Assembly (NCBI GenBank): GCA_033344815.1
Contig: JAWPMR010000001.1
Location: 358,136 to 422,135, forward strand
Length of the DNA stretch: 64,000 nt
Direction of reading: 5' to 3'
Origin: Paracoccaceae bacterium
GTDB lineage: Bacteria; Pseudomonadota; Alphaproteobacteria; Rhodobacterales; Rhodobacteraceae
Shown here: one piece after another, positions 35,337-48,317 of the stretch
How positions within the stretch are numbered: position 1 is the first letter of the stretch
How the letters are laid out: each line of letters opens with the position of its first letter
Position numbers and translations under genes: made by a program
Notes under the pieces: generated by a model
Seen by the model: only the letters and a program-made list of their open reading frames with translations
Database searches by the model: none
Told to the model about the DNA's origin: nothing

Positions 35337-36883
35337 GTGATTTTTGCGTTTGATGATTATGAGCTCGACACCCAGCTGATGGAGCTCCGCAAAGGGGCCG
35401 AGCCGATAAATATTGAGCCAAAGGTTTTCCAGACACTGCGCTTTCTAATCGAGATGCGTGCCCGCGCCGTCTCGCGCGATGAGCTGCTTGATCATGTCTG
35501 GGGCGGGCGGATTGTCAGTGACGCGTCGGTTTCTTCGGCCATCAAGGCAGCGCGGCAAGCCATTGGTGACAGTGGAACCTTGCAGCGCAGGATAAAAACC
35601 GTGCACGGATACGGCTTTCGTTTTGCCGGGGACATCGGCCTGTCGGCACCTGCGGCGGTACAAAAGGCCACCTCGGTGACAGACACTTCGCCACCATCCA
35701 AGCAACCTTCAATCGTCGCCCTGCCTTTTGAGATGCTTGGGCCACAACAGGATCATCCGGCCATTTCTGTGGCCATTGCACATGATGTCATTCAGGCGTT
35801 GTCCCGCCTGCGCTGGCTCAGGGTCATTGCGCGGGCGACAGCCTTTCAGTTCAGCGGCCGCCCCTACGGCGAAATCGCTAGCAGCCTTGATGTCAACTAA
35901 TGTCTGACCGGAACGGTTGAGGTGGACCAGAAGCGTTTGCACATCACCTTAGAATTGCTCGATCTGGTGCGGGGCAGTGTGATCTGGGTTGATCAATTCG
36001 CGGGGGCCATGGACGATATCCATGATCTGCGTGCCAGGATCGTCAACGGGACTGTTGCGTCAATCGAGACACGGATCTCTCAGCATGAGGCACGGTTTGC
36101 ACAGGGGACCCCGACGGAAAGCCTTGATGCATGGTCGGCCTTTCATGTTGGTCTGGTGAATATGTATCGCTTCAGCCATGCGGGAAATGAACGTGCGATC
36201 GCAATGTTTGACCAGGCCATCGCGCTGGACCCCACTTTTGCAAAGGCCCATGCCGGACGGTCGTTCGCCCATTTTCAGAACGCATTCAACGCCTATCCCG
36301 GTGTCGACAAATCGCAGGCTGCCCATATGGCGCTGGCGACGGCAGAGCGCAGTCTGGAATTGGACGAAATGGATCACTTTGCGAATTTCGTGCGGGGGCG
36401 GGCCAGTTGGCTGGCTGGCGATCTAGAGCAGGCGCTGGACTGGGTCTTACGGTCAACAGAAATAAATCCAAACTTCTCGCGCAAGTACACTACACAAGTG
36501 GTCTGCTGGGCGTCTTGTCAGGGGCGCATGTTGACTATGAAGATGCTTCGGACCGGTCTATATCTTTAAGCCCACTTGACCCGATGCTCTATGGAATTCG
36601 TGGCATTCGTGCCCTTGGGTATCTGCAGGACAATAACTATGCAGATGCCGTCGTCTGGGCCAACAATTCGGCGAATGCGCCGGGTGCCCTGCCAGTGATG
36701 GACCTTGTGGCGCTCATCGCCAACGAACTTGCAGAAGACAGATCGGTCGCCAAAAAGTGGGCAGAGCGGGCACTAGCCCGCCACAAAGATTTAAGCAGCG
36801 CCTGTTTCTTTCGAGCACTGCCATTTCAAGACCGTGCCTTTCGGCATTTGGCGGCAAAAATTCTTAAGAAGTATGGCATTTGA
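35337..36883 (+). pseudogene. Winged-helix/TPR transcription regulator, broken twice
   Basis: The first part (GTG at 35337) has an OmpR/CadC-type winged helix: VFQTLRFLIEMRARAVSRDE, LLDHVWGGRIVSDASVSSAI and RIKTVHGYGFRFAG. It is followed by the SVAIAHDVIQALSRL periplasmic-like segment of adenylate-cyclase/TPR regulators. A TAA at 35898-35900 then cuts the frame (the family usually has tyrosine there), but the same frame continues with LTGTVEVDQKRLHITLELLD and TPR helices. A frameshift near 36470-36500 moves the remaining TPR part (LSPLDPMLYGIRGIRALGY) into another frame to 36883. It is divergent from mddA, which it may once have controlled. Confidence 0.8.
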
Positions 36884-37590: not shown

Positions 37591-37690
37591 TTAAGCAGTA
37601 TGCGGTCTGTAGTATTCGTTCCTTGTTAGGACGGCCCAGATGATCCGCGCGGTCTTGTTCGCTATTGCCACAGTGGCAAGACGGGTTGGT
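37591..37690 (-). mobile_element. IS110-family transposase C-terminal fragment
   Basis: On the minus strand the frame RKPTRLATVAIANKTAR followed by IIWAVLTRNEYYRPHTA and a TAA at 37591-37593 matches the last 30 or so residues of IS110 (Transposase_20) proteins. The rest of the transposase is missing. The fragment begins where the integrase frame at 37690-37943 loses homology, so it marks an insertion or deletion junction in that integrase. Confidence 0.7.
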
Positions 37691-37943
37691 TTGCGGTCAT
37701 GCGGCGATATTCCAACGCCCGGTCGCGTGCCTGATGGATCGTGACCACATCTGCACCACCAAAACCGAAATCCGTGTGCAGCGGTGCGTCTTTTTTGTTT
37801 TTCTGACCTTTGACCGACACGCGCACAATCCAGCGCCGCGCGCCGGGCGGATCAGCCACCAGATAAAGGCCACTGGCGTCACGTTGACGACCAGAACCAA
37901 GTTTCCCGACTAGCTTCTTAGTCAGCCTACCGGATAGGGCCAT
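37690..37943 (-). pseudogene. Truncated tyrosine integrase (N-terminal arm domain)
   Basis: About 84 codons beginning MALSGRLTKKLVGKLGSG match the N-terminal DNA-arm-binding domain (DUF4102) of P4-type integrases: SGLYLVADPPGARRWIVRV, DFGFGGADVVTIHQAR and ALEYRRMTAN. The homology stops where the IS110 fragment begins, so the catalytic domain is lost. It lies about 150 bp downstream of tRNA-Ser(GGA) in the same direction, the usual place for an integrase that targets a tRNA 3' end. Confidence 0.8.
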
Positions 37944-38948: not shown

Positions 38949-41270
38949 TCAGGATGGCGCGTCTTTCAGGACTTCGGCATTGCGCAGCCAGATATCACGC
39001 TGGGCGAATGGAATTTCGATGTCTTCTTCGGTAAAGCGCTTGGCAATCGCGTGATTGATGTCGTTCTTGACATTCATGATCCAGTTCACGTCCCGCAAGA
39101 TCATTCGCAACTCGAATTCCAGAGAGTCCGCGCCGAAATTATTGAACAGAATCATTGGCGGCGGGGTGCGCAAGACCATGGGTTGATCATCCACGATCTC
39201 TTTGAGGATTGTTTCAACACGGCGTGTATCGGTGCCATAGGCGACACCAACAGATACAATGAGACGCCCGACCTTGTTGCCGCGCGTGTAGTTTGTGACG
39301 GTGCCCGAAACAAGATCGGCATTCGGGACAATCACGTCGGTGCGATCAAAGGTTTCGATCCGTGTGGAGCGCACGGAGATGTCGCGCACATAGCCCATCT
39401 GCCCGCCAACCTCGATCCAATCGCCTTCGGAAATCGGACGTTCAATCAACAAGATGATGCCTGACACGAAATTGGAAACAATCGTCTGCAGTCCAAAACC
39501 AATTCCCACCGATAAGGCACCGGCAACAATTGCCAGCGAAGATAAATCGAGCCCTGCCCCGGTGACTGCTAAAATGCCCGCGAGGAAAATCCCGACATAA
39601 CCAAGACCGGACACAATGGCGTTCTGACCGCCGATGTCGATCTTGGTTTTCGGCAAGACATTCGCACGTAGCGTGTTTTGCAACAGCCGCGTGATCCCGT
39701 ATCCAAGCGCGAAAATCACCACAAGCGTCAGAAAATCACCGGGCGAAATCCGGGTGTCGCCAATGGCGAAACCCAGCGTAAACCGAGACCAGAGTTCCGT
39801 GAGATCTGCGACCCGCGCGCCCCAGACAAGAGCGAGCACCGGCAAAGATGCCATAAGCAGGAAAAATCCGGTGAATATGGGGAACAACGCGTCACGGGCC
39901 TGGACGCCCATCCCGGTGATCAACCCATAAACATCCGCCACAAAGCGGTTCAGGGTGACCACCACACCCAAGACCAATATGGTCATGACCGTGGGGTACA
40001 GCAACGCGTTGCCGGCCTCGCTGTAACCGATGGCTGCCATTGACGGCGCAACCACGGAAACGGCAATCAGCACGGTTCCCATACTGCGATTGAAGCGCGC
40101 GATCGAGGTGCCACGCGCAGCTTCACCTTCTTCGGTCGCCGCAGGCGAAGCATGCCCACGCAGCAGCTGTCCAATACCGGCCAGTGCAAAGGCAACCAAA
40201 ACCATGATCGGGAACGCGACAACGGCCTCTGCCTTCGCCTCCATGCTGTCAAATTCAAGGAGCAGACGCACGATGTCGCGCATCACCATGAATACCGACA
40301 GGATCAGCATCAAAAACCGTGCCTGCGCGCGTTTTTCGTCCGATAGAAGGATCAAGGCATCATCAGGATCGCGTGGAAAAAGGCGCTCGGCCAACCAACG
40401 GAACCCCAGCAAGAAAACCGCCCAGATCGGTAAGGCGTCGAGGATCTGATTGACCCGGTCGCCCGCCAACCCGGTGACCCGCAAGGCGTGGGCAAAGATC
40501 GCGACACCAATCAATGGGATAATGATCCGGAACAACGACACCAAAAAACGCCAGACGCCGCTGCCGCGTCCTCCGATTGCTCTGAGACGGCTCAAAGCAA
40601 ATCCGGCCCAGGCCCTGCCCCGAAAGATAAAAGTCAGGGAAACCACCAACAAAAACAGGACAAGCGGCGCGTTCTGGCGCAAGACCATTCGACGCTCGGG
40701 ATCCTTGTGCAGGCTCACCTCGTCGAGCAGATTGCTGAAGGTATTGTCCAATTCCCTGATCGCGATGGGCCAATTCGACGGATTTACCGGAGAAGCGCCC
40801 AGCGACAAAAGGCGTTTGGTTTGCCGTTCGCGGATGATCCCATCTATTTCGTCGATCAAAGAGTCGGCCCGTCGAAATGCCTCCGTGGCAACCTGCACAG
40901 GGCCCTGCACTGCCAGAAGCTGGCTTTCCAATTCACTGCGGCGTGCGGCGACTTCGGGCAATTCTTCGCCCGACGCCGGTGTCTCACCCAATGCTTCGAT
41001 TTGTCGGTTAAGCGCAGCTATTCGGGGTTCACTTGCGCTTCTGACATCAGAAAACCGCGCCCGAAAATTTGAAACGCCCTGTCGTAGGACTTCAAACTGT
41101 TCGTTGGTGCTGACATCCTTTTGAATGGCTGTTTCCGTGAGGCCCGCCAATTGCTCCCACGCAGAATAATCCAGTACATCGCTCGGCGCGTTTTGAGCCG
41201 TAGCGCCATCGTTGACGATAGTGCACAGCCCGATCAGCAGAATCGCGAAGGCCCGGAATAAGCGGCTCAT
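38949..41270 (-). CDS. Mechanosensitive channel, MscS family with DUF3772 domain
   Basis: 773 residues. A signal sequence is followed by a periplasmic coiled DUF3772 domain (about 30-210, rich in Glu/Arg helices), then eleven or so transmembrane segments. The pore helix has the small-residue pattern SLAIVAGALSVGIGFGLQ at about 585-605, followed by the cytoplasmic MscS beta-domain (SEGDWIEVGGQMGYVRDISV, DVIVPNADLVSGTVTNYTRG). It is predicted to open on membrane tension and release solutes on osmotic downshock. It overlaps the cysK stop by 4 nt and is last of the phrB-cfa-trgA-trgB-cysK run. Confidence 0.92.
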   Translation of the reverse strand: MSRLFRAFAILLIGLCTIVNDGATAQNAPSDVLDYSAWEQLAGLTETAIQKDVSTNEQFEVLRQGVSNFRARFSDVRSASEPRIAALNRQIEALGETPASGEELPEVAARRSELESQLLAVQGPVQVATEAFRRADSLIDEIDGIIRERQTKRLLSLGASPVNPSNWPIAIRELDNTFSNLLDEVSLHKDPERRMVLRQNAPLVLFLLVVSLTFIFRGRAWAGFALSRLRAIGGRGSGVWRFLVSLFRIIIPLIGVAIFAHALRVTGLAGDRVNQILDALPIWAVFLLGFRWLAERLFPRDPDDALILLSDEKRAQARFLMLILSVFMVMRDIVRLLLEFDSMEAKAEAVVAFPIMVLVAFALAGIGQLLRGHASPAATEEGEAARGTSIARFNRSMGTVLIAVSVVAPSMAAIGYSEAGNALLYPTVMTILVLGVVVTLNRFVADVYGLITGMGVQARDALFPIFTGFFLLMASLPVLALVWGARVADLTELWSRFTLGFAIGDTRISPGDFLTLVVIFALGYGITRLLQNTLRANVLPKTKIDIGGQNAIVSGLGYVGIFLAGILAVTGAGLDLSSLAIVAGALSVGIGFGLQTIVSNFVSGIILLIERPISEGDWIEVGGQMGYVRDISVRSTRIETFDRTDVIVPNADLVSGTVTNYTRGNKVGRLIVSVGVAYGTDTRRVETILKEIVDDQPMVLRTPPPMILFNNFGADSLEFELRMILRDVNWIMNVKNDINHAIAKRFTEEDIEIPFAQRDIWLRNAEVLKDAPS

Positions 41271-42304
41271 ACGTCCTCAAAGACCCCCGGTATGCTTGCA
41301 GGTGCCTGATCAAGCCATCCGGGTGTCGGCAACCCCTTTTCGCGCAGAAACTCGGGATTGAACAATTTGGACTGATAGCGTGTGCCATAGTCGCACAGTA
41401 TCGTCACAATTGTATGCCCCGGCCCCATGTCACGCGCCAGACGCATGGCACCCGCGATATTGATGCCTGAGGATCCCCCGAGGCAAAGTCCCTCATGCTG
41501 AAGCAAGTCAAACACGATCGGCAGAGCTTCGGCGTCATGTATGTTGTAGCTGAAGTCCGGCACAAAACCTTCCAGGTTCTTGGTGATACGGATCTGCCCG
41601 ATCCCTTCGTTGATCGAGGATCCTTCTGACATGACCAATTCACCCTTGGTGTAGTGGTTGTACAAGGAGGCGCCATCCGGATCGGCCAACCCTATTTTGA
41701 CACCCTTGGGCTTCAGGACCTCGGATACGCCCGCTAAAGTGCCACCAGACCCCACGGCGCAAATGAAGCCATCAACTCCACCCTCTGTCTGTGCCCAGAT
41801 CTCCGGCCCTGTTGTTTCGATATGCGCGCGCCGGTTGGCCGTATTGTCAAACTGATTGGCCCAGATCACGCCCTCATTCGTGGTGCGCGCCAATTCATTT
41901 GCCAGCCGTTCGGAATAGCGCACGAAGTTGTTGGGGTTGCGGTAGGGCGCTGCGGGCACCTGTACCAATTCCGCACCCGCCAGGCGCAACATGTCTTTCT
42001 TTTCCTGACTTTGTGTCTCCGGAATAACAATGACAGTTTTAAAACCCATCGACGCTCCGACCAACGCGAGGCCGATGCCTGTATTACCTGCGGTGCCTTC
42101 GACGATGGTGCCACCAGGTTTCAGCAGGCCGCGCTCAATCGCGTCCTTGATGATAAAAAGCGCTGCGCGATCCTTGACCGATTGGCCCGGGTTCATGAAC
42201 TCGGCCTTACCTAGAATTTCGCAGCCCGTCGCCTCACTGGCATGCCTCAACCGGATCAGCGGTGTGTTTCCAATGGCTGTCGCCAGATCAGTCGCAACCT
42301 GCAT
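41267..42304 (-). CDS. cysK: Cysteine synthase
   Basis: CysK makes cysteine from O-acetylserine and sulfide. The 345-residue product is a fold-type II PLP enzyme: the PLP lysine is K44 in MNPGQSVKDRAAL, the substrate loop is TAGNTGIGLALVG (usual T-S-G-N-T variant) and the phosphate-binding loop is AVGSGGTLAG. It is about 25 residues longer than short CysK at the C-terminus. In Rhodobacter sphaeroides a cysK gene lies with trgAB and contributes to tellurite resistance; the same order occurs here (54 bp after trgB). ATG at 42304. Confidence 0.92.
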   Translation of the reverse strand: MQVATDLATAIGNTPLIRLRHASEATGCEILGKAEFMNPGQSVKDRAALFIIKDAIERGLLKPGGTIVEGTAGNTGIGLALVGASMGFKTVIVIPETQSQEKKDMLRLAGAELVQVPAAPYRNPNNFVRYSERLANELARTTNEGVIWANQFDNTANRRAHIETTGPEIWAQTEGGVDGFICAVGSGGTLAGVSEVLKPKGVKIGLADPDGASLYNHYTKGELVMSEGSSINEGIGQIRITKNLEGFVPDFSYNIHDAEALPIVFDLLQHEGLCLGGSSGINIAGAMRLARDMGPGHTIVTILCDYGTRYQSKLFNPEFLREKGLPTPGWLDQAPASIPGVFEDV

Positions 42305-42358
42305 TGCCCTACCCCAATTTATTACTTCGTTGAAACCTATCCCCGCGCAGGCGTGACC

Positions 42359-43465
42359 TCAAGAGGAAGCGCGTAGTCGATCACGATGACGTGCCAACCA
42401 ATAGGCAATTAGAACCAAAGGCGCATTGACGATCCGCTGCGTGTCACATTGTGCCATCAGCGTGTCAAAATCCATCACATGCGATCGGATATCTTCCTCT
42501 TCTGCATCCAGACCACCAACCCCGCCGGCATCATCAGGAAGATCGGCGATTCCCACATAAGTGTAGTGAAATTCCGTCGAATTCCCCGGCGAGCTGTAGG
42601 TCTCTCCGACGGCATGCAGGGCACCAATACTGACACCGGTTTCCTCAATGGCCTCGCGGCGCACCGCCTCCTGTGGAGTCTCTCCCGGATCAAGGCGGCC
42701 TGCAATGGGTTCCAACTGCCACAAGGCTGCATCCCCCCGCGCCAGAGGGCCCAGACGCATCTGCTCGATCACCAGAACACGGTCCCGAACCGGATCATAT
42801 GGTAGGACATGTGCCGCATCCGCCGCCACGAACACCGCACGCATCAGCTGCGGCGTCATGGAACCGTCAAACCGTTCATGGCTCAGATCAAATTCGTCCA
42901 ATGCAAAATACTCAGCGTACATCCGGCGCCGTTCGGTGATATCCACCCTGCCCCGAAACCTGTCCTGCGCAGAGCCGCCCTGCGCGGCGTTCAAAGTGGA
43001 CCAGGCCCGCGCCCGGATCATGGGAAACATTTGAGCGATATCTTCGGGCGGTTTCTGCCCCATATATCCCATCACTTCGTCTGCGGCGAGAACGCTTAAC
43101 GGTCCCCAGTCTTCAGCCCACAACGCGAGGGACCATGCGCCATTTGCCGTCCAGAGATCCTGCTGCGCCATGTATACCCGTGCCGCACGTCCATCTGCGA
43201 GGACGACATCCCTGAGAACATAGCCAAAGGCGCCTTCGTAATAGTCCAGCCGTGCCAGTTCGGCATCTGTTACCCCTTCAGCGAGCAGACCCGGAGCGGT
43301 TGTGCCTTGTTTCGCGACAAGCGTCGGAAACGGACCTTCAAGGACAGCCTGAACGCTGTAATCCGCCAACTCTGCAGGGCTTAACCTGATGTGGGAACAA
43401 TCGCCAGCAACGGCATCAAAAAGCGCGCGGTGCTGCATCGTGCCGAAAAAAAAGAGTGATGTCAT
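42359..43465 (-). CDS. trgB: TrgB: gamma-glutamylcyclotransferase-like plus Nudix hydrolase
   Basis: 368 residues with two domains. Residues 1-150 resemble the gamma-glutamylcyclotransferase/AIG2-like barrel (MTSLFFFGTMQHRALFD start; LARLDYYEGAFGYVLRDV). The C-terminal half is an ADP-ribose-pyrophosphatase type Nudix domain with a complete Nudix box, GRLDPGETPQEAVRREAIEE then TGV. The likely reaction is cleavage of ADP-ribose-like nucleotides; the first domain's role is unknown. ATG at 43465 gives the right N-terminus. It follows trgA by 16 bp. In Rhodobacter, trgAB confers high-level tellurite resistance. The trgB name rests on domain order and neighbours. Confidence 0.83.
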   Translation of the reverse strand: MTSLFFFGTMQHRALFDAVAGDCSHIRLSPAELADYSVQAVLEGPFPTLVAKQGTTAPGLLAEGVTDAELARLDYYEGAFGYVLRDVVLADGRAARVYMAQQDLWTANGAWSLALWAEDWGPLSVLAADEVMGYMGQKPPEDIAQMFPMIRARAWSTLNAAQGGSAQDRFRGRVDITERRRMYAEYFALDEFDLSHERFDGSMTPQLMRAVFVAADAAHVLPYDPVRDRVLVIEQMRLGPLARGDAALWQLEPIAGRLDPGETPQEAVRREAIEETGVSIGALHAVGETYSSPGNSTEFHYTYVGIADLPDDAGGVGGLDAEEEDIRSHVMDFDTLMAQCDTQRIVNAPLVLIAYWLARHRDRLRASS

Positions 43466-43481
43466 ACCGCGTCTTAGCGCG

Positions 43482-43922
43482 TCAACGCCAGGTCCGCCAT
43501 GCGTATTCGGTGGCAAGTCCGGACAAAATGCCACCCATGATCAGGGACATGACCACCAAGGGGTTGAGCATGACCAGACCGTATTCTGCCATGAACTTGA
43601 AAATCGCCAGTAATGCATCAAAAGCACCATCATACCAATTCGCCATCGCCCGGTCGAACATCTGATAGCTGGCATGCAAAAACAGGCACCACAAGATCAA
43701 CATCAAAACCCCGCCGAAGCCGTTGTTGATGGCCGCTGTGAGCCCGCGCCCGGCCCGTTTACCCATCACTGTCCAGCCGACGAAAACGCCAATAAAGGCG
43801 TTCACATAAGCGAAAAGGCCGAAACCGGTGCTTTCAGGCATCAAGGGGATGATCTGATGGGAGACGATAAATCCGACGATACAGATGCAAATGGCGGCAA
43901 TCAGCCGGGCTGCTGTTGGCAT
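43482..43922 (-). CDS. trgA: TrgA family inner-membrane protein
   Basis: 146 residues with four hydrophobic segments (RLIAAICICIVGFIVSHQII, a second around YVNAFIGVFVGWTV, a third around GVLMLILWCLFLHA and a fourth near the end). It fits the TrgA family named for tellurite resistance in Rhodobacter sphaeroides; the mechanism is not known. ATG at 43922 has AAAGGAT 8 nt upstream. It lies between cfa (26 bp) and trgB (16 bp) on the same strand, which supports the identification. Confidence 0.85.
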   Translation of the reverse strand: MPTAARLIAAICICIVGFIVSHQIIPLMPESTGFGLFAYVNAFIGVFVGWTVMGKRAGRGLTAAINNGFGGVLMLILWCLFLHASYQMFDRAMANWYDGAFDALLAIFKFMAEYGLVMLNPLVVMSLIMGGILSGLATEYAWRTWR

Positions 43923-43948
43923 CTGATCTATCCTTTCAATATGCGCCC

Positions 43949-45157
43949 CTATCCAGGCCGCTTGATGGTGATTTGCGTGACATCGCAATTCGAGCTTTCG
44001 AACGTTGATGCACAGGACGTCAGGTAGAAATTCCACATTCGACGAAAGCGTTCATCGAACCCCAAAGTGCTGACCTGATCCCATTTGGCGTTGAATGTAT
44101 CGTGCCATCGGCGCAAAGTTATGGAATAACTGTGGCCAAATTCGACAGAACGCTCGATGCTCAGGCCGGCTTTTTTGACCTGATCGCGCAAAGCCGAAGG
44201 GCTTGGCAGCATCCCACCGGGAAAAATGTATTTCTGGATGAAATCGACGCCGCGCTGGTACACATGCCAACGCCTGTCCGCCACGGTGATAATCTGGAGC
44301 GTCGCACTTTTCCCAGGTTTCAACCGTTCCCGAACCACATTGAAATATGTCGGCCAGTACTTTTCGCCCACGGCTTCGAACATTTCGATGCTGGCGATGC
44401 CATCATAGGTCCCGGTTTCATCCCGGTAGTCTTGTAGCTTGAAGTCTACCTGATCTGAAAGTCCTGCACTTTCAATACGTTCCCGAGCATATTTAATCTG
44501 CTCCTCGGAAATGGTCAGCCCGGTAACACGCAGGCCTCTTTCCTTGGCGGCATATTCGGCAAAACCGCCCCAACCACAGCCAATTTCAAGAATGTGATCC
44601 CCCGGCTGGGCCCCCATTTCATCCACCATTGATTTATATTTTTCGATCTGGGCTTTCTCTGTGCTTTCCTGCCCGGTGCGGAACATGGCCGAGGAATAGG
44701 TCATCGTGTCATCCAGCCAGAGCCCATAGAAATCATTTCCCAGATCGTAATGAAAACTGATGTTCTTGCGTGCCTGATTTCTGTGATTGCGCTGCAGCCA
44801 GAACCGAAATCGTTCAAAATTGCGCAAAATGGCCATGCCGGGGAAGCCATCATAGATGTCCTCATTGTCTGCATGCACCAGGTCCATGAAGGCCTGCAAA
44901 TCGGGTGTTGACCACCATCCATCCAGATAACCATCACAAAATCCCAGATCGCCTTCGCGGATCAGGCGGGCAAAGAGATCGTCATTGTGGATCTCGATCT
45001 CGGCGACCGGCCCGGGGTACTTGCCCTCCGCGCGGAACCGCCGCCCGTCCGGAACTACAAAATCAACGCGGCCGTTGTTCATCTTCTGCGCCATGGCGAA
45101 CACATGCGTGAAGTATCGCGGCAGATTGTGTTGGCCATCAGTGGTGGTCAGGATCAT
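43949..45157 (-). CDS. cfa: Cyclopropane-fatty-acyl-phospholipid synthase
   Basis: Cfa uses S-adenosylmethionine to add a methylene bridge to unsaturated lipid chains, stabilising the membrane against acid, oxidants and heat. The 402-residue product has an N-terminal lipid-binding region and a class I methyltransferase domain: YDLGNDFYGLWLDDTMTYSS, HILEIGCGWGGFAEYAAKE for SAM binding, and FDRGVDFIQKYIFPGGMLPS-like sequence near the end. It is 73 bp after phrB and 26 bp before trgA. In Rhodobacter a cfa homologue belongs to the RpoE singlet-oxygen regulon, fitting the promoter upstream of phrB. Confidence 0.93.
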   Translation of the reverse strand: MILTTTDGQHNLPRYFTHVFAMAQKMNNGRVDFVVPDGRRFRAEGKYPGPVAEIEIHNDDLFARLIREGDLGFCDGYLDGWWSTPDLQAFMDLVHADNEDIYDGFPGMAILRNFERFRFWLQRNHRNQARKNISFHYDLGNDFYGLWLDDTMTYSSAMFRTGQESTEKAQIEKYKSMVDEMGAQPGDHILEIGCGWGGFAEYAAKERGLRVTGLTISEEQIKYARERIESAGLSDQVDFKLQDYRDETGTYDGIASIEMFEAVGEKYWPTYFNVVRERLKPGKSATLQIITVADRRWHVYQRGVDFIQKYIFPGGMLPSPSALRDQVKKAGLSIERSVEFGHSYSITLRRWHDTFNAKWDQVSTLGFDERFRRMWNFYLTSCASTFESSNCDVTQITIKRPG

Positions 45158-45230
45158 GTGGTTTCCGTCTGTTGTAGTGGTCGGGCGTTACACCGATTTT
45201 AAAGCATGCGCAAAGGGGCGATCAAGGGTT

Positions 45231-46649
45231 TCAAAAGCCTTTGTTTCCATAGGCTTCAAGGGCGATTTTACGTCCCTCATCCGCAGCCACTACCGGAGCG
45301 GGAATTTTGTCATCGGGGGACATGTTCCAGCGGCGTGGAATGGCCTCAAAAAAGGCAAGCGCATCTTCGCTGGGCTTTGACCGTCCTTCTGCAATCCAGC
45401 GGGTGGTATAGTCGCGGTTTTTGTCAAATTTATCGAGTTGCGTCACGGGATTGAACACCCGGAAGTAAGGTGTGGCATCGGGACCGGACCCGGCAGACCA
45501 CTGCCATCCCATGGCATTGCTGGCGGGATCCCAGTCAATCAGGCAGTCCTCAAACCAGTCCCTGCCGATTTTCCAATGCGTCAGCAGGTGTTTCGTCAGG
45601 TAACTGGCCACGATCATGCGGCCCCTATTGTGCATTATTCCAGTCACATAAAGTTCGCGCATGGCCGCATCGACGAATTGAATTCCTGTACGTCCTTGCA
45701 TCCACGCCCTGACTTCCGGCGCGTCTGGATCGGTGCGCCACGGAAACGCATCCCAGGCCTCCTTCCAGTTGCCGCTCAGCAAACGCGGGGTGTGATGCAT
45801 CAAGTGGTAGGCAAACTCGCGCCAGACCAGCTCCTTGAGAAAGGTCTCCGCACCCTTCTTGCCCTCTTGGCGCGCCCGCACGCCCGCGTGCCAGCATTGA
45901 TGCGGACTGATCTCGCCAAGGCTGAGGTTCTGCGACAGACCAGACGTCCCGTCGACCCCCGGTAAATCGCGGGTGGTGTCATACCCCTCGACTATTTGCG
46001 CGATAAACGCGCCCAGACGTGATTGTGCCGCCTTCTCGCCCAACCGAACGTGGGGCCGCACTATTTCCGCACCCCGGTTCATGGCTTTGCCCATTTCCCA
46101 AGCGGCCAATTCCTCACTCGATGGCCATTGAGATGGCGCGGGAATGTCACCGGGGGTGGGCAAAGGTGCATCGACCTCACGCGTTTTCACCATATTCCAA
46201 AACGGTGTGTAAACTTTGTAGAACCCGCCGGTTTTAGTTTCTACGGTCCAAGGCTCGAACATCAAATGCCCGCCAAAGGATTTTGCCTCGATTCCCTGCT
46301 CTTTGAGCGCGGATTTGATTTCGGTGTCGCGCGTGACCGCGTCCGGATCATAGAGCCGAGACCAGTAAACAGATGTCGCCCCGGTCTCGGAGATCAGCGC
46401 GCGCAGAGTTTCCAGCGCATTGCCGCGGCGCAACGTCAGCCGGCTCCCCTTACTGGAAAGACTGCTCGCAAAATCCTCCAACCCAAGACCAAGCCGCCAT
46501 TTCGGAGCAGACCCCAGTTTAGACACCGCGTCGTCATGGATGAAAATCGGAACAATGGGTCGGCCCGTCGCACATGCAGCGTGCAACGCGGGATGATCAC
46601 TCAGTCGCAGATCACGACGGAACCAGACAAGTATCGGAGATGTGCCCAC
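45231..46649 (-). CDS. phrB: Deoxyribodipyrimidine photolyase
   Basis: PhrB uses FADH- and blue light to split UV-induced pyrimidine dimers. The 472-residue product has the antenna domain (PILVWFRRDLRLSDHPAL) and the helical FAD domain, with LSQNLSLGEISPHQCWH, TGIQFVDAAMRELYVTGIM and HNRGRMIVASYLTKHLL, then DWDPASNAMGWQWSAGSGPD. The start is GTG at 46649, with GAAGG upstream. It is first of a minus-strand run phrB-cfa-trgA-trgB-cysK-mscS, and a sigma-E-like promoter ends about 30 bp before its start. Confidence 0.95.
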   Translation of the reverse strand: MGTSPILVWFRRDLRLSDHPALHAACATGRPIVPIFIHDDAVSKLGSAPKWRLGLGLEDFASSLSSKGSRLTLRRGNALETLRALISETGATSVYWSRLYDPDAVTRDTEIKSALKEQGIEAKSFGGHLMFEPWTVETKTGGFYKVYTPFWNMVKTREVDAPLPTPGDIPAPSQWPSSEELAAWEMGKAMNRGAEIVRPHVRLGEKAAQSRLGAFIAQIVEGYDTTRDLPGVDGTSGLSQNLSLGEISPHQCWHAGVRARQEGKKGAETFLKELVWREFAYHLMHHTPRLLSGNWKEAWDAFPWRTDPDAPEVRAWMQGRTGIQFVDAAMRELYVTGIMHNRGRMIVASYLTKHLLTHWKIGRDWFEDCLIDWDPASNAMGWQWSAGSGPDATPYFRVFNPVTQLDKFDKNRDYTTRWIAEGRSKPSEDALAFFEAIPRRWNMSPDDKIPAPVVAADEGRKIALEAYGNKGF

Positions 46650-46677
46650 GCCGCAAAGCCTTCACGTTTCTTTAATA

Positions 46678-46707
46678 CACTTACGTAAATCGATCCTTTT
46701 TGGATCA
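46678..46707 (-). promoter_or_regulatory. Candidate RpoE (ECF11-type) promoter upstream of phrB
   Basis: On the minus strand TGATCC (46707-46702) is followed by exactly 18 nt and then TAAGTG (46683-46678). This fits the -35 TGATC and -10 TAAG consensus, with about 18-bp spacing, that I recall for Rhodobacter sigma-E (RpoE/ChrR, singlet oxygen response). It lies in the 68-bp gap between the desulfurase-like gene and phrB, properly placed about 30 bp from the GTG start. In Rhodobacter, photolyase and cfa genes are known targets of this sigma factor, which supports the match. It has not been tested. Confidence 0.7.
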
Positions 46708-46717
46708 AGTCAACCGA

Positions 46718-47941
46718 TTAAAGAACATGATCAAGTGCTTCTAATAACTTATCGATTTCTTCCTTCGAGGTGTAATGGGTGAAGCTTAGCCGCAAAACGC
46801 CCAAACCCTCATCCACCCCCATCGCCTTCAGCGCGCGACCCGCATAGAAATCGCCGCCCCCTGCCATAACACCATGCGCAGAGAGTTCGGCGGCCACCTC
46901 TTCAGCATTCCGATTGAGGGCCAGCGTGACCGTAGGTGCGCGATTTTGAGGATCAGACGGGCCAATGAGACGCACAGAATTGCGCGCTTTGACAGCTTCC
47001 AGTACAGGCGCCAGAAGAGCCTGTTCGTGGGCCCGCATCAGATCATGTACCGCGCTACCGCGCTCCCTTGGTAACATCTCCTCCGCAAAATGATGTGCAA
47101 ATAGCGCGTCGACATAGTCCGCCATCCCGGCGCAGGCCGCTACCTGCGCGTGATCCGGACCGGCAGGCGTGAACCGTTTATAAAGCGTATCCGCGTTGAA
47201 GTGATGCCCCTGATTGGGCAACAGGTTCCCCAATGTGCGCCGCATGATCATAACGCCCTGATGCGGCCCATAGGTTTTATAAGCAGAAAAAAGATAGATA
47301 TCTGGTCCCATCGCGCCCAGATTTGGAAATCCATGTGGCGCATAGGAGACGCCATCAACACAGGTGAACGCCCCGGCTGCGTGCGACAATGCGGTGATTT
47401 CCACAACCGGATTGATCTCCCCCACCACGTTTGAGCAATGCGGAAAACATACAAGGCGGACTTTTTCATCCAGAATTTCTTCGAGGTCTTCGGGATTGAG
47501 GTGACCAGTATCTGGATCGACTTGCCACTCCCGGATCTCGATGCCGCGCTCGGACAGCCGCCGCCAGGGGCCGGAGTTGGCTTCATGATCCTGATTTGTG
47601 ACGATGATCGCCTCGCCCGGCGCCATCATTTCCGCAAAGGCCTGCGCCAGCACATAAGTGTTTTGAGTGGTTGAGGGTCCAAAGCTCACTTCATCCGCGT
47701 CGACACCCAAAATCGCCGCCATACGCTGCCGGGCTTCGTCCATCTCGGCACCCCCCAAACGGCTCGCCGCGTAAGGTGCATAGGGTTGAACTTTACGTTC
47801 TCTGTAAAACCGCGTGAGCCGGTCAATCACCTGCGCGCAAGCATAAGACCCGCCCGCGTTCTCAAAAAATGCCTGATCTTTCAAAGAAGGCACATCAAAT
47901 GCGGGGAACTGGCGCCGCACAAATTCTAAATCCAAATTCAT
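46718..47941 (-). CDS. Cysteine-desulfurase-like aminotransferase class V protein
   Basis: 407 residues, PLP-dependent. Class V motifs are visible: VSFGPSTTQNTYVLAQAF, NQDHEANSGPWRRLSERG, AGAFTCVDGVSYAPHGF and the PLP lysine in FSAYKTYGPHQGVMI. The protein matches the SF subgroup of desulfurase-like proteins rather than IscS or SufS; no suf or isc genes are nearby, so sulfur transfer is not proved. ATG at 47941 removes an untypical upstream extension. It lies upstream of phrB, and its 3' end abuts the sigma-E-like promoter. Confidence 0.83.
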   Translation of the reverse strand: MNLDLEFVRRQFPAFDVPSLKDQAFFENAGGSYACAQVIDRLTRFYRERKVQPYAPYAASRLGGAEMDEARQRMAAILGVDADEVSFGPSTTQNTYVLAQAFAEMMAPGEAIIVTNQDHEANSGPWRRLSERGIEIREWQVDPDTGHLNPEDLEEILDEKVRLVCFPHCSNVVGEINPVVEITALSHAAGAFTCVDGVSYAPHGFPNLGAMGPDIYLFSAYKTYGPHQGVMIMRRTLGNLLPNQGHHFNADTLYKRFTPAGPDHAQVAACAGMADYVDALFAHHFAEEMLPRERGSAVHDLMRAHEQALLAPVLEAVKARNSVRLIGPSDPQNRAPTVTLALNRNAEEVAAELSAHGVMAGGGDFYAGRALKAMGVDEGLGVLRLSFTHYTSKEEIDKLLEALDHVL

Positions 47942-48317
47942 GGTGGCAACGTCTCTTGCGCGGCTTGTCAGGTCAAGCACTCAATGCATACGGACGTCGG
48001 ATGGACCACTCGTCTTTTTCAAGATATTGGGGTCGCGCTGAAGATCAGCTTTCACTATCTGGCTTTTAATGGTCGCGCACTGCAGAAATGCGCGCGCGCA
48101 GATGACCGGCGATTTCAAAACCTAAGACACCTTTGGCCGATCGTTTTCTGCACCGGTCACACTTGCGCGCGTTGTTATGTCCACAGGCGGTACGAAACGT
48201 TTTTCGTATACGAAGCCAAATCGTTGGAGATAAAAGTCATGTGTTTGCCCAACACATATTTGCTTGCCCGGCTCGTGAGATTTAAGAAGGCTACCAAAAA
48301 CCAATAGGACTTCAAAC
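47942..48317. promoter_or_regulatory. Divergent intergenic region
   Basis: 376 bp between the desulfurase-like gene (-) and an alpha/beta hydrolase gene (+). It contains promoters for both, but I could not mark boxes with confidence. A frame of about 107 codons crosses it without family resemblance. Confidence 0.4.

Follow-up and report, generated by a model that had tools for sequence, protein, structure and literature searches.

Two sets of genes with different reputations, a photolyase-methyltransferase pair of the kind placed in the singlet-oxygen response and the tellurite locus trgAB-cysK, can be found side by side on one strand, which raises the question of whether they are transcribed as one unit. 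We examined this in a 64,000-nucleotide stretch of the genome of a Paracoccaceae bacterium (contig JAWPMR010000001.1, positions 358,136 to 422,135; hereafter the window), the host genome being a single contig of 5.08 Mb. Six genes (phr, a methyltransferase gene, trgA, trgB, cysK and mscS) lie here on the minus strand with gaps of 73, 26, 16, 54 and −4 bp, exactly as the initial annotation had described. It had placed all six behind one RpoE-like promoter. From motifs and their conservation we consider it likely that the run consists of two adjoining same-strand transcription units, P1-phr-ufaM-trgA-trgB and P3-cysK-mscS, where P1 and P3 denote the promoter-like elements listed in Table 1; the six genes are thus probably not one operon. 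Two adjoining units would help to explain why a tellurite locus stands beside a singlet-oxygen response.

A conserved promoter-like element precedes cysK

TrgB served as the query against one genome per genus and matched 133 of 159 (the host included); the stretches of the 132 relatives were then compared by tblastn. The six genes are contiguous, with gaps below 400 bp, in 61 of the 133 loci, and in the remaining 72 at least one gene is missing, moved, undetected or beyond the contig end. Upstream sequences of about 130 to 200 bases, free of N, yielded 103 to 133 loci per gene.

A search of the gap between trgB and cysK gave GCTTGAG[TG]TC followed by CCTACA. With at most one mismatch overall, 52 of the 119 loci have TTGAGG-N16..18-TACA ahead of cysK (0.1 expected), and the spacing is 17 in 51 of these 52. 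The looser TTGA-N19-TA is found ahead of cysK in 103 of the 119 (0.9 expected) and ahead of the other genes in 0 to 4 loci. Both patterns were defined on the same 119 loci, so a less circular figure is provided by a set of named loci outside the defining set, of which 31 of 38 carry TTGA-N19-TA (two loci identical to sampled ones were omitted, and no further pair reaches 95% identity over 2 kb). The TGA of the element is the trgB stop codon in 71 of the 101 measurable loci.

Loci in which the run is broken show to which gene the element belongs. Behind trgB, 14 of the 133 loci have no same-strand cysK within the stretch, and TTGA-N19-TA is present in none of the 13 that are long enough. The genomes of ten of the 14 were searched for cysK elsewhere. 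One of them (G037, locus L312) was excluded because its contig ends 87 bases ahead of cysK, after the apparent end of trgB, which marks an assembly break; its cysK is preceded by TTG-N19-CTA and not by TTGA-N19-TA. In the nine genomes with a displaced or inverted cysK, mscS adjoins cysK in all nine and TTGA-N19-TA precedes cysK in eight, the inverted cysK of L321 having neither pattern. Since the element accompanies cysK in 8 of 9 displaced cases and is found in 0 of 13 cases behind trgB without cysK, it belongs to cysK-mscS. What synteny would call one operon contains a conserved boundary between units, marked by a promoter-like element laid over the upstream stop codon.

A housekeeping sigma70 promoter is suggested for P3, as −10 boxes without the T at the last position (−7) are common among alphaproteobacterial sigma70 promoters (PMC8407463). 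For P3 as for the TTG-N17-CTA head element described below, RpoH and sigma70 are both candidates (promoter features in PMC3441632 section 7). In Rhodobacter sphaeroides, the RpoE-dependent small RNA Pos19 lowers cysK mRNA (PMC5036791), a further hint that cysK is controlled separately. The proposal of one promoter is not confirmed, since a second conserved element lies ahead of cysK. A single operon should have no conserved internal promoter, and the initial annotation itself had named a separate cysK promoter as evidence against its six-gene unit; P3 appears to be such a promoter by its sequence conservation, and the single unit is not supported. No description of the cysK element or of the split of an ancestral cluster proposed below was found in the open-licence PMC literature. 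Separately, a weaker CTTG-N19..21-CTA lies ahead of the cfa/ufaM gene in 16 of 103 loci of relatives (1.1 expected).

Table 1 Features of the six-gene run and its surroundings (positions in the window)
Feature	Coordinates	Strand	Basis or remark
P1, RpoE (ECF11)-type promoter motif	46679..46707	-	TGATCC-N16-CGTAAGTG; 3' end 29 bases ahead of the phr GTG start
phr, DNA photolyase	45231..46649	-	PF00875 and PF03441
ufaM-type fatty-acyl methyltransferase (earlier cfa)	43949..45157	-	PF02353
trgA, small membrane protein	43482..43922	-	NF033773, 185.2 bits (cut-off 40); hydrophobic segments
trgB, GGACT-like domain fused to NUDIX domain	42359..43465	-	Domains; Nudix box present
P3, conserved promoter-like element of cysK	42334..42362	-	TTGAGG-N17-TAGGTT; its TGA is the trgB stop codon
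cysK, cysteine synthase	41267..42304	-	NF007989, 556 bits (cut-off 387)
mscS-type channel with DUF3772	38949..41270	-	PF00924, PF21082, PF12607
Class V aminotransferase / cysteine-desulfurase-like gene	46718..47980	-	PF00266; TIGR01976 below cut-off

An RpoE-type motif heads the run

Ahead of phr, TGATCC-N18-TAAGTG had been pointed out as the promoter. The site is present and can equally be written TGATCC-N16-CGTAAGTG, which is an exact match to TGATCC-N16-CGTA, the ECF11 consensus of Pseudomonas syringae (PMC5507510), and also matches TGATCC(N15)GCGTA, given for RpoE of R. sphaeroides in PMC5036791. The CGTA pattern was adopted after inspection of the data and before the published consensus was met. 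Three other patterns were tried and rejected: TGATCC-N16..20-TAAGT had 4 genome matches (control 0), TGATC-N18..20-TAAG had 65 (control 5) and was too unspecific, and TGATC-N17..20-TAA was found ahead of phr in just 10 of 103 loci, which revealed the conserved core CGTA.

P1 is the sole exact TGATCC-N15..17-CGTA match in the window, where 12 further sites have one mismatch. The whole genome contains 35 exact matches, 16 of them with N16; the reversed pattern has 7, and across the genome a match by itself is therefore weak evidence. Among these 35 matches, 30 were inspected with their loci and the downstream open reading frames (ORFs) were examined for 11, 3 of the 16 N16 matches being without a locus. 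The host has chrR (206.7 bits) with an adjoining sigma factor gene, that is, an rpoE-chrR pair, and TGATCC-N16-CGTA occurs at rpoE as well, near the gene start (L160, 5503-5528). Besides phr and rpoE, exact N16 matches lie at a fasciclin gene and at folE2, both of which are listed in the RpoE table of R. sphaeroides (PMC7074977 Table 1). Many of the remaining matches fall within long ORFs and have the appearance of chance occurrences, and a scan of L161-L163 for the exact TGATCC-type motif gave no match.

Conservation in the family points the same way. With at most one mismatch in TGATCC, 42 of 105 family loci have TGATCC-N15..17-CGTA ahead of phr, where Markov shuffles predict 0.7; the remaining five genes have it in 0 to 2 loci apiece. 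In 130-base stretches, phr has the motif in 43 of 105 loci, with 1.4 expected, and the other genes have it in 0 to 4. The proposed RpoE/ChrR-type promoter at phr is thus supported by the fit to the consensus, the rpoE-chrR pair and the conservation in the family, and we infer that P1 is an RpoE (ECF11)-type promoter, with RpoE as the presumed sigma factor and a predicted transcription start. An inverted repeat, GATCC-AAAAA-GGATC (46692-46706), is located within P1 and overlaps its −35 box.

The head promoter has changed within the family

A second type of head element, TTG-N17-CTA, precedes phr in 43 of 105 loci (1.9 expected); by eye, several of these elements in relatives lie inside the 3' end of the upstream class V aminotransferase gene. 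The 105 loci divide into 38 with the RpoE type, 39 with the TTG type, 4 with both and 24 with neither, and among 44 named loci the first three classes hold 17, 15 and 1. On a quick tree of 97 of the 105 loci, the RpoE-type label must have changed at least 7 times and the TTG-type label at least 8 times to fit the supported branches. Both classes nevertheless form clusters there, with 0 of 500 shuffles equally low, and the closest relatives of the window are of mixed classes. One gene block with several changes of head promoter within a single family calls for caution when regulons are deduced from synteny or from a single species.

Two explanations of the head classes were considered and not supported. 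The TTG-type head is not a clear mark of ChrR loss, as chrR exceeds the cut-off in 27 of 32 such loci versus 39 of 40 RpoE-type loci (Fisher p 0.08), and the RpoE-type head is not a mark of phototrophs, with Photo_RC in 14 of 40 versus 16 of 32 non-RpoE loci (p 0.23). The other 26 of the 40 loci with the RpoE-type motif alone are from genomes without Photo_RC, and a Photo_RC search of the host genome found no reaction-centre match; both results weaken the link to light that had been drawn for this locus.

The methyltransferase groups with UfaM-type proteins

In R. sphaeroides, RSP_2144, elsewhere called cfaS, is UfaM, which methylates cis-vaccenate toward furan fatty acids together with UfaD and UfaO (PMC7380195). 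In a CMAS tree of 72 rows, the window protein falls into a 48-row clade (support 100/100) formed by all 24 proteins with a ufaO neighbour, all 14 with a trgB neighbour and 10 others, and 24 other CMAS proteins fall outside this clade. The bootstrap of the tree had not settled, and no named UfaM of proven activity is among the rows; the loci came from 30 of 74 class-wide matches with flanks of about 1.5 kb, which makes the label 'no ufaO neighbour' unsure. The protein misses the cut-offs of three Cfa models (NF008686, 288.9 against 400; NF053839, 261.1 against 600; NF040703, 233.5 against 650) and is the sole strong CMAS match of the genome at 289 bits, the next reaching 31.5. The solved structures nearest to it by sequence are cyclopropane synthases. 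From its placement in the clade, the gene labelled cfa is best renamed as a putative ufaM-type gene.

Partner genes are present in the host. Candidates for ufaD and ufaO, encoding PF01593 and PF07103 proteins, adjoin rpoE, and the genes divergent from rpoE (amine oxidase, DUF1365, MFS, DUF3833, SDR) have the order described for RSP_1091-1087. By this gene order and the descriptions in PMC7074977 and PMC5507510, the two proteins would be UfaD and UfaO. According to reviews, the lipid genes are required for the turnover of ChrR or for RpoE to be fully activated (PMC6852236 section 16; PMC7074977 section 22).

trgAB and the surroundings of the run

A TrgA-family protein stands beside TrgB and CysK, which defines a trgAB-cysK locus. 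TrgB, for which there is no named model, was assigned by its GGACT and NUDIX domains and its position; a Nudix box is found in 103 of 121 aligned TrgB proteins, and the window protein has one as well. The class V aminotransferase gene, whose 3' end is 10 bp ahead of P1, is kept upstream of phr in many loci. Downstream of mscS, TPR-like ORFs overlapping in two frames (35922-36883, plus strand) and a short integrase-like ORF (37662-37943, minus strand) have, by eye, the look of decayed genes.

Related clusters outside the family

Among 80 named loci, 22 (L251-L271, L273) are not labelled Rhodobacteraceae or Paracoccaceae. Of these 22, 17 have ufaD-ufaO-cfa in a row, with phr in front in 10 of the 17, and cysK is in the stretch in 7 of the 22. 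In Rhizobium phaseoli, another member of the Rhizobiales and Oceanicaulis, the cluster is followed by a ChrR-like gene and a cysK (70-72% identity), and an RpoE-type motif precedes phr in these three loci (L252, L256 and L257) as well as in L259 and L265. A ChrR-like gene also adjoins trgB in four sampled family loci (L124, L156, L145 and L144): L124 keeps a phr-ufaD-ufaO-ufaM-MFS-SDR cluster, L156 is alike by its ORFs, phr and cfa are present in L145, and the contig of L144 is short.

These ChrR-like cupin genes beside trgB or cysK (L124, L156, L144, L145, L252 and L256) have no adjoining rpoE and carry TGATCC-N16-CGTA upstream on their own strand. Ten ChrR-like genes without an rpoE neighbour were compared, and the idea that those near trgB or cysK lack HxxxCxxC was dropped: four of the ten keep the motif, and one of the other six (L261) is unreliable, being read through stops.

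The phr-trgAB-cysK run may, by these comparisons, be part of an older RpoE cluster. We infer that an ancestral cluster was split, leaving phr-ufaM with trgAB and cysK-mscS. A fuller version would make the trgAB-cysK of the family the remnant of a cluster with phr-ufaD-ufaO-ufaM by cysK that was divided in two, one half going to rpoE-chrR, so that TrgA and TrgB would be unrecognised members of the singlet-oxygen and furan-lipid response and tellurite resistance would be secondary; we propose this tentatively and lean slightly against it.

Proposed model and alternatives

In the two-unit model, RpoE would start unit 1 (phr, ufaM, trgA and trgB) at P1 once singlet oxygen or peroxides have led to the loss of ChrR. 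The photolyase would repair DNA, and UfaM would methylate cis-vaccenoyl chains for UfaD and UfaO, whose genes adjoin rpoE, to convert to furan fatty acids. According to reports on R. sphaeroides, RpoE is not fully activated without these lipid genes, so the operon would act back on the switch that controls it. TrgA and TrgB would be passengers or effectors. Unit 2 (cysK and mscS) would be transcribed from its own, probably housekeeping, promoter P3 over the trgB stop codon, to which read-through from P1 could add. trgA and trgB, long filed under tellurite, would thereby gain a testable home in the RpoE response and furan-lipid synthesis.

Several observations weigh against this model, and some of them favour one six-gene RpoE operon in which P3 is silent or minor in the host. 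The −10 box of P3 in the window (TAGGTT) is off the consensus, the host genome contains no site that fits the strict CTTGAGKTC-N13..14-CTACA, so that P3 may be weak there, and no terminator-like site was found in the trgB-cysK gap, leaving read-through of all six genes possible (a search for hairpins in the gaps gave no signal, with mean folding z of −0.20 and −0.02). The short gaps and the contiguity of the six genes in 61 loci also fit one operon. We nevertheless regard it as improbable, given that P3 is conserved ahead of cysK and travels with it, and that cysK and mscS stay together in all nine searched genomes in which the run breaks behind trgB. The RpoE table of R. sphaeroides, which lists phrA and cfaS, has no trg, cysK or mscS (PMC7074977 Table 1); induction often falls along induced operons of this species (PMC3688512), and distal genes could for this reason be missed from the table. 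P3 could also be a conserved element other than a promoter, for example an operator or a cysK leader, as the conservation runs beyond the −35-like box; its two boxes with a nearly fixed spacing, and the tolerance of sigma70 −10 boxes for a missing final T, make this unlikely.

Other difficulties concern P1. The 24 loci with neither head class lack either promoter type, the motif at rpoE falls inside the longest ORF reading so that a later start must be assumed, and the ufaD operon of the host has no RpoE-type motif at up to one mismatch, whereas RpoE targets the corresponding operon in R. sphaeroides (PMC7074977 Table 1). The gene order might accordingly be a relic of shared ancestry, with RpoE control incidental and often lost, and the mixed head classes, their many changes on the tree and the lack of a clear tie to phototrophy agree with this. 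The clustering of the classes on the tree does not, nor does the RpoE-type motif ahead of phr outside the family, which indicates that the link to RpoE is old, and we give the relic explanation little weight. Two adjoining units remain the likely arrangement.

Comparison with known systems

R. sphaeroides, compared here by description, offers the closest parallels. As with its phrA and cfaS (ufaM), RSP_2143 and RSP_2144, the host has a photolyase and a UfaM-type methyltransferase gene under putative RpoE-type control, and rpoE-chrR and an operon like RSP_1091-1087 are also found in the host; the systems differ in that no reaction-centre gene was found in the host. In R. sphaeroides, the trgAB-cysK tellurite locus (O'Gara 1997, as cited in PMC6955997) has the same families in the same order; a difference is that the window has phr-ufaM directly upstream and mscS downstream. 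Clusters of the Rhizobium phaseoli type resemble the host in keeping phr, ufaM and cysK (70-72% identity) together with an RpoE-type motif before phr, and differ from it in containing ufaD and ufaO, in giving no match to trgA or trgB and in having a ChrR-like gene beside cysK.

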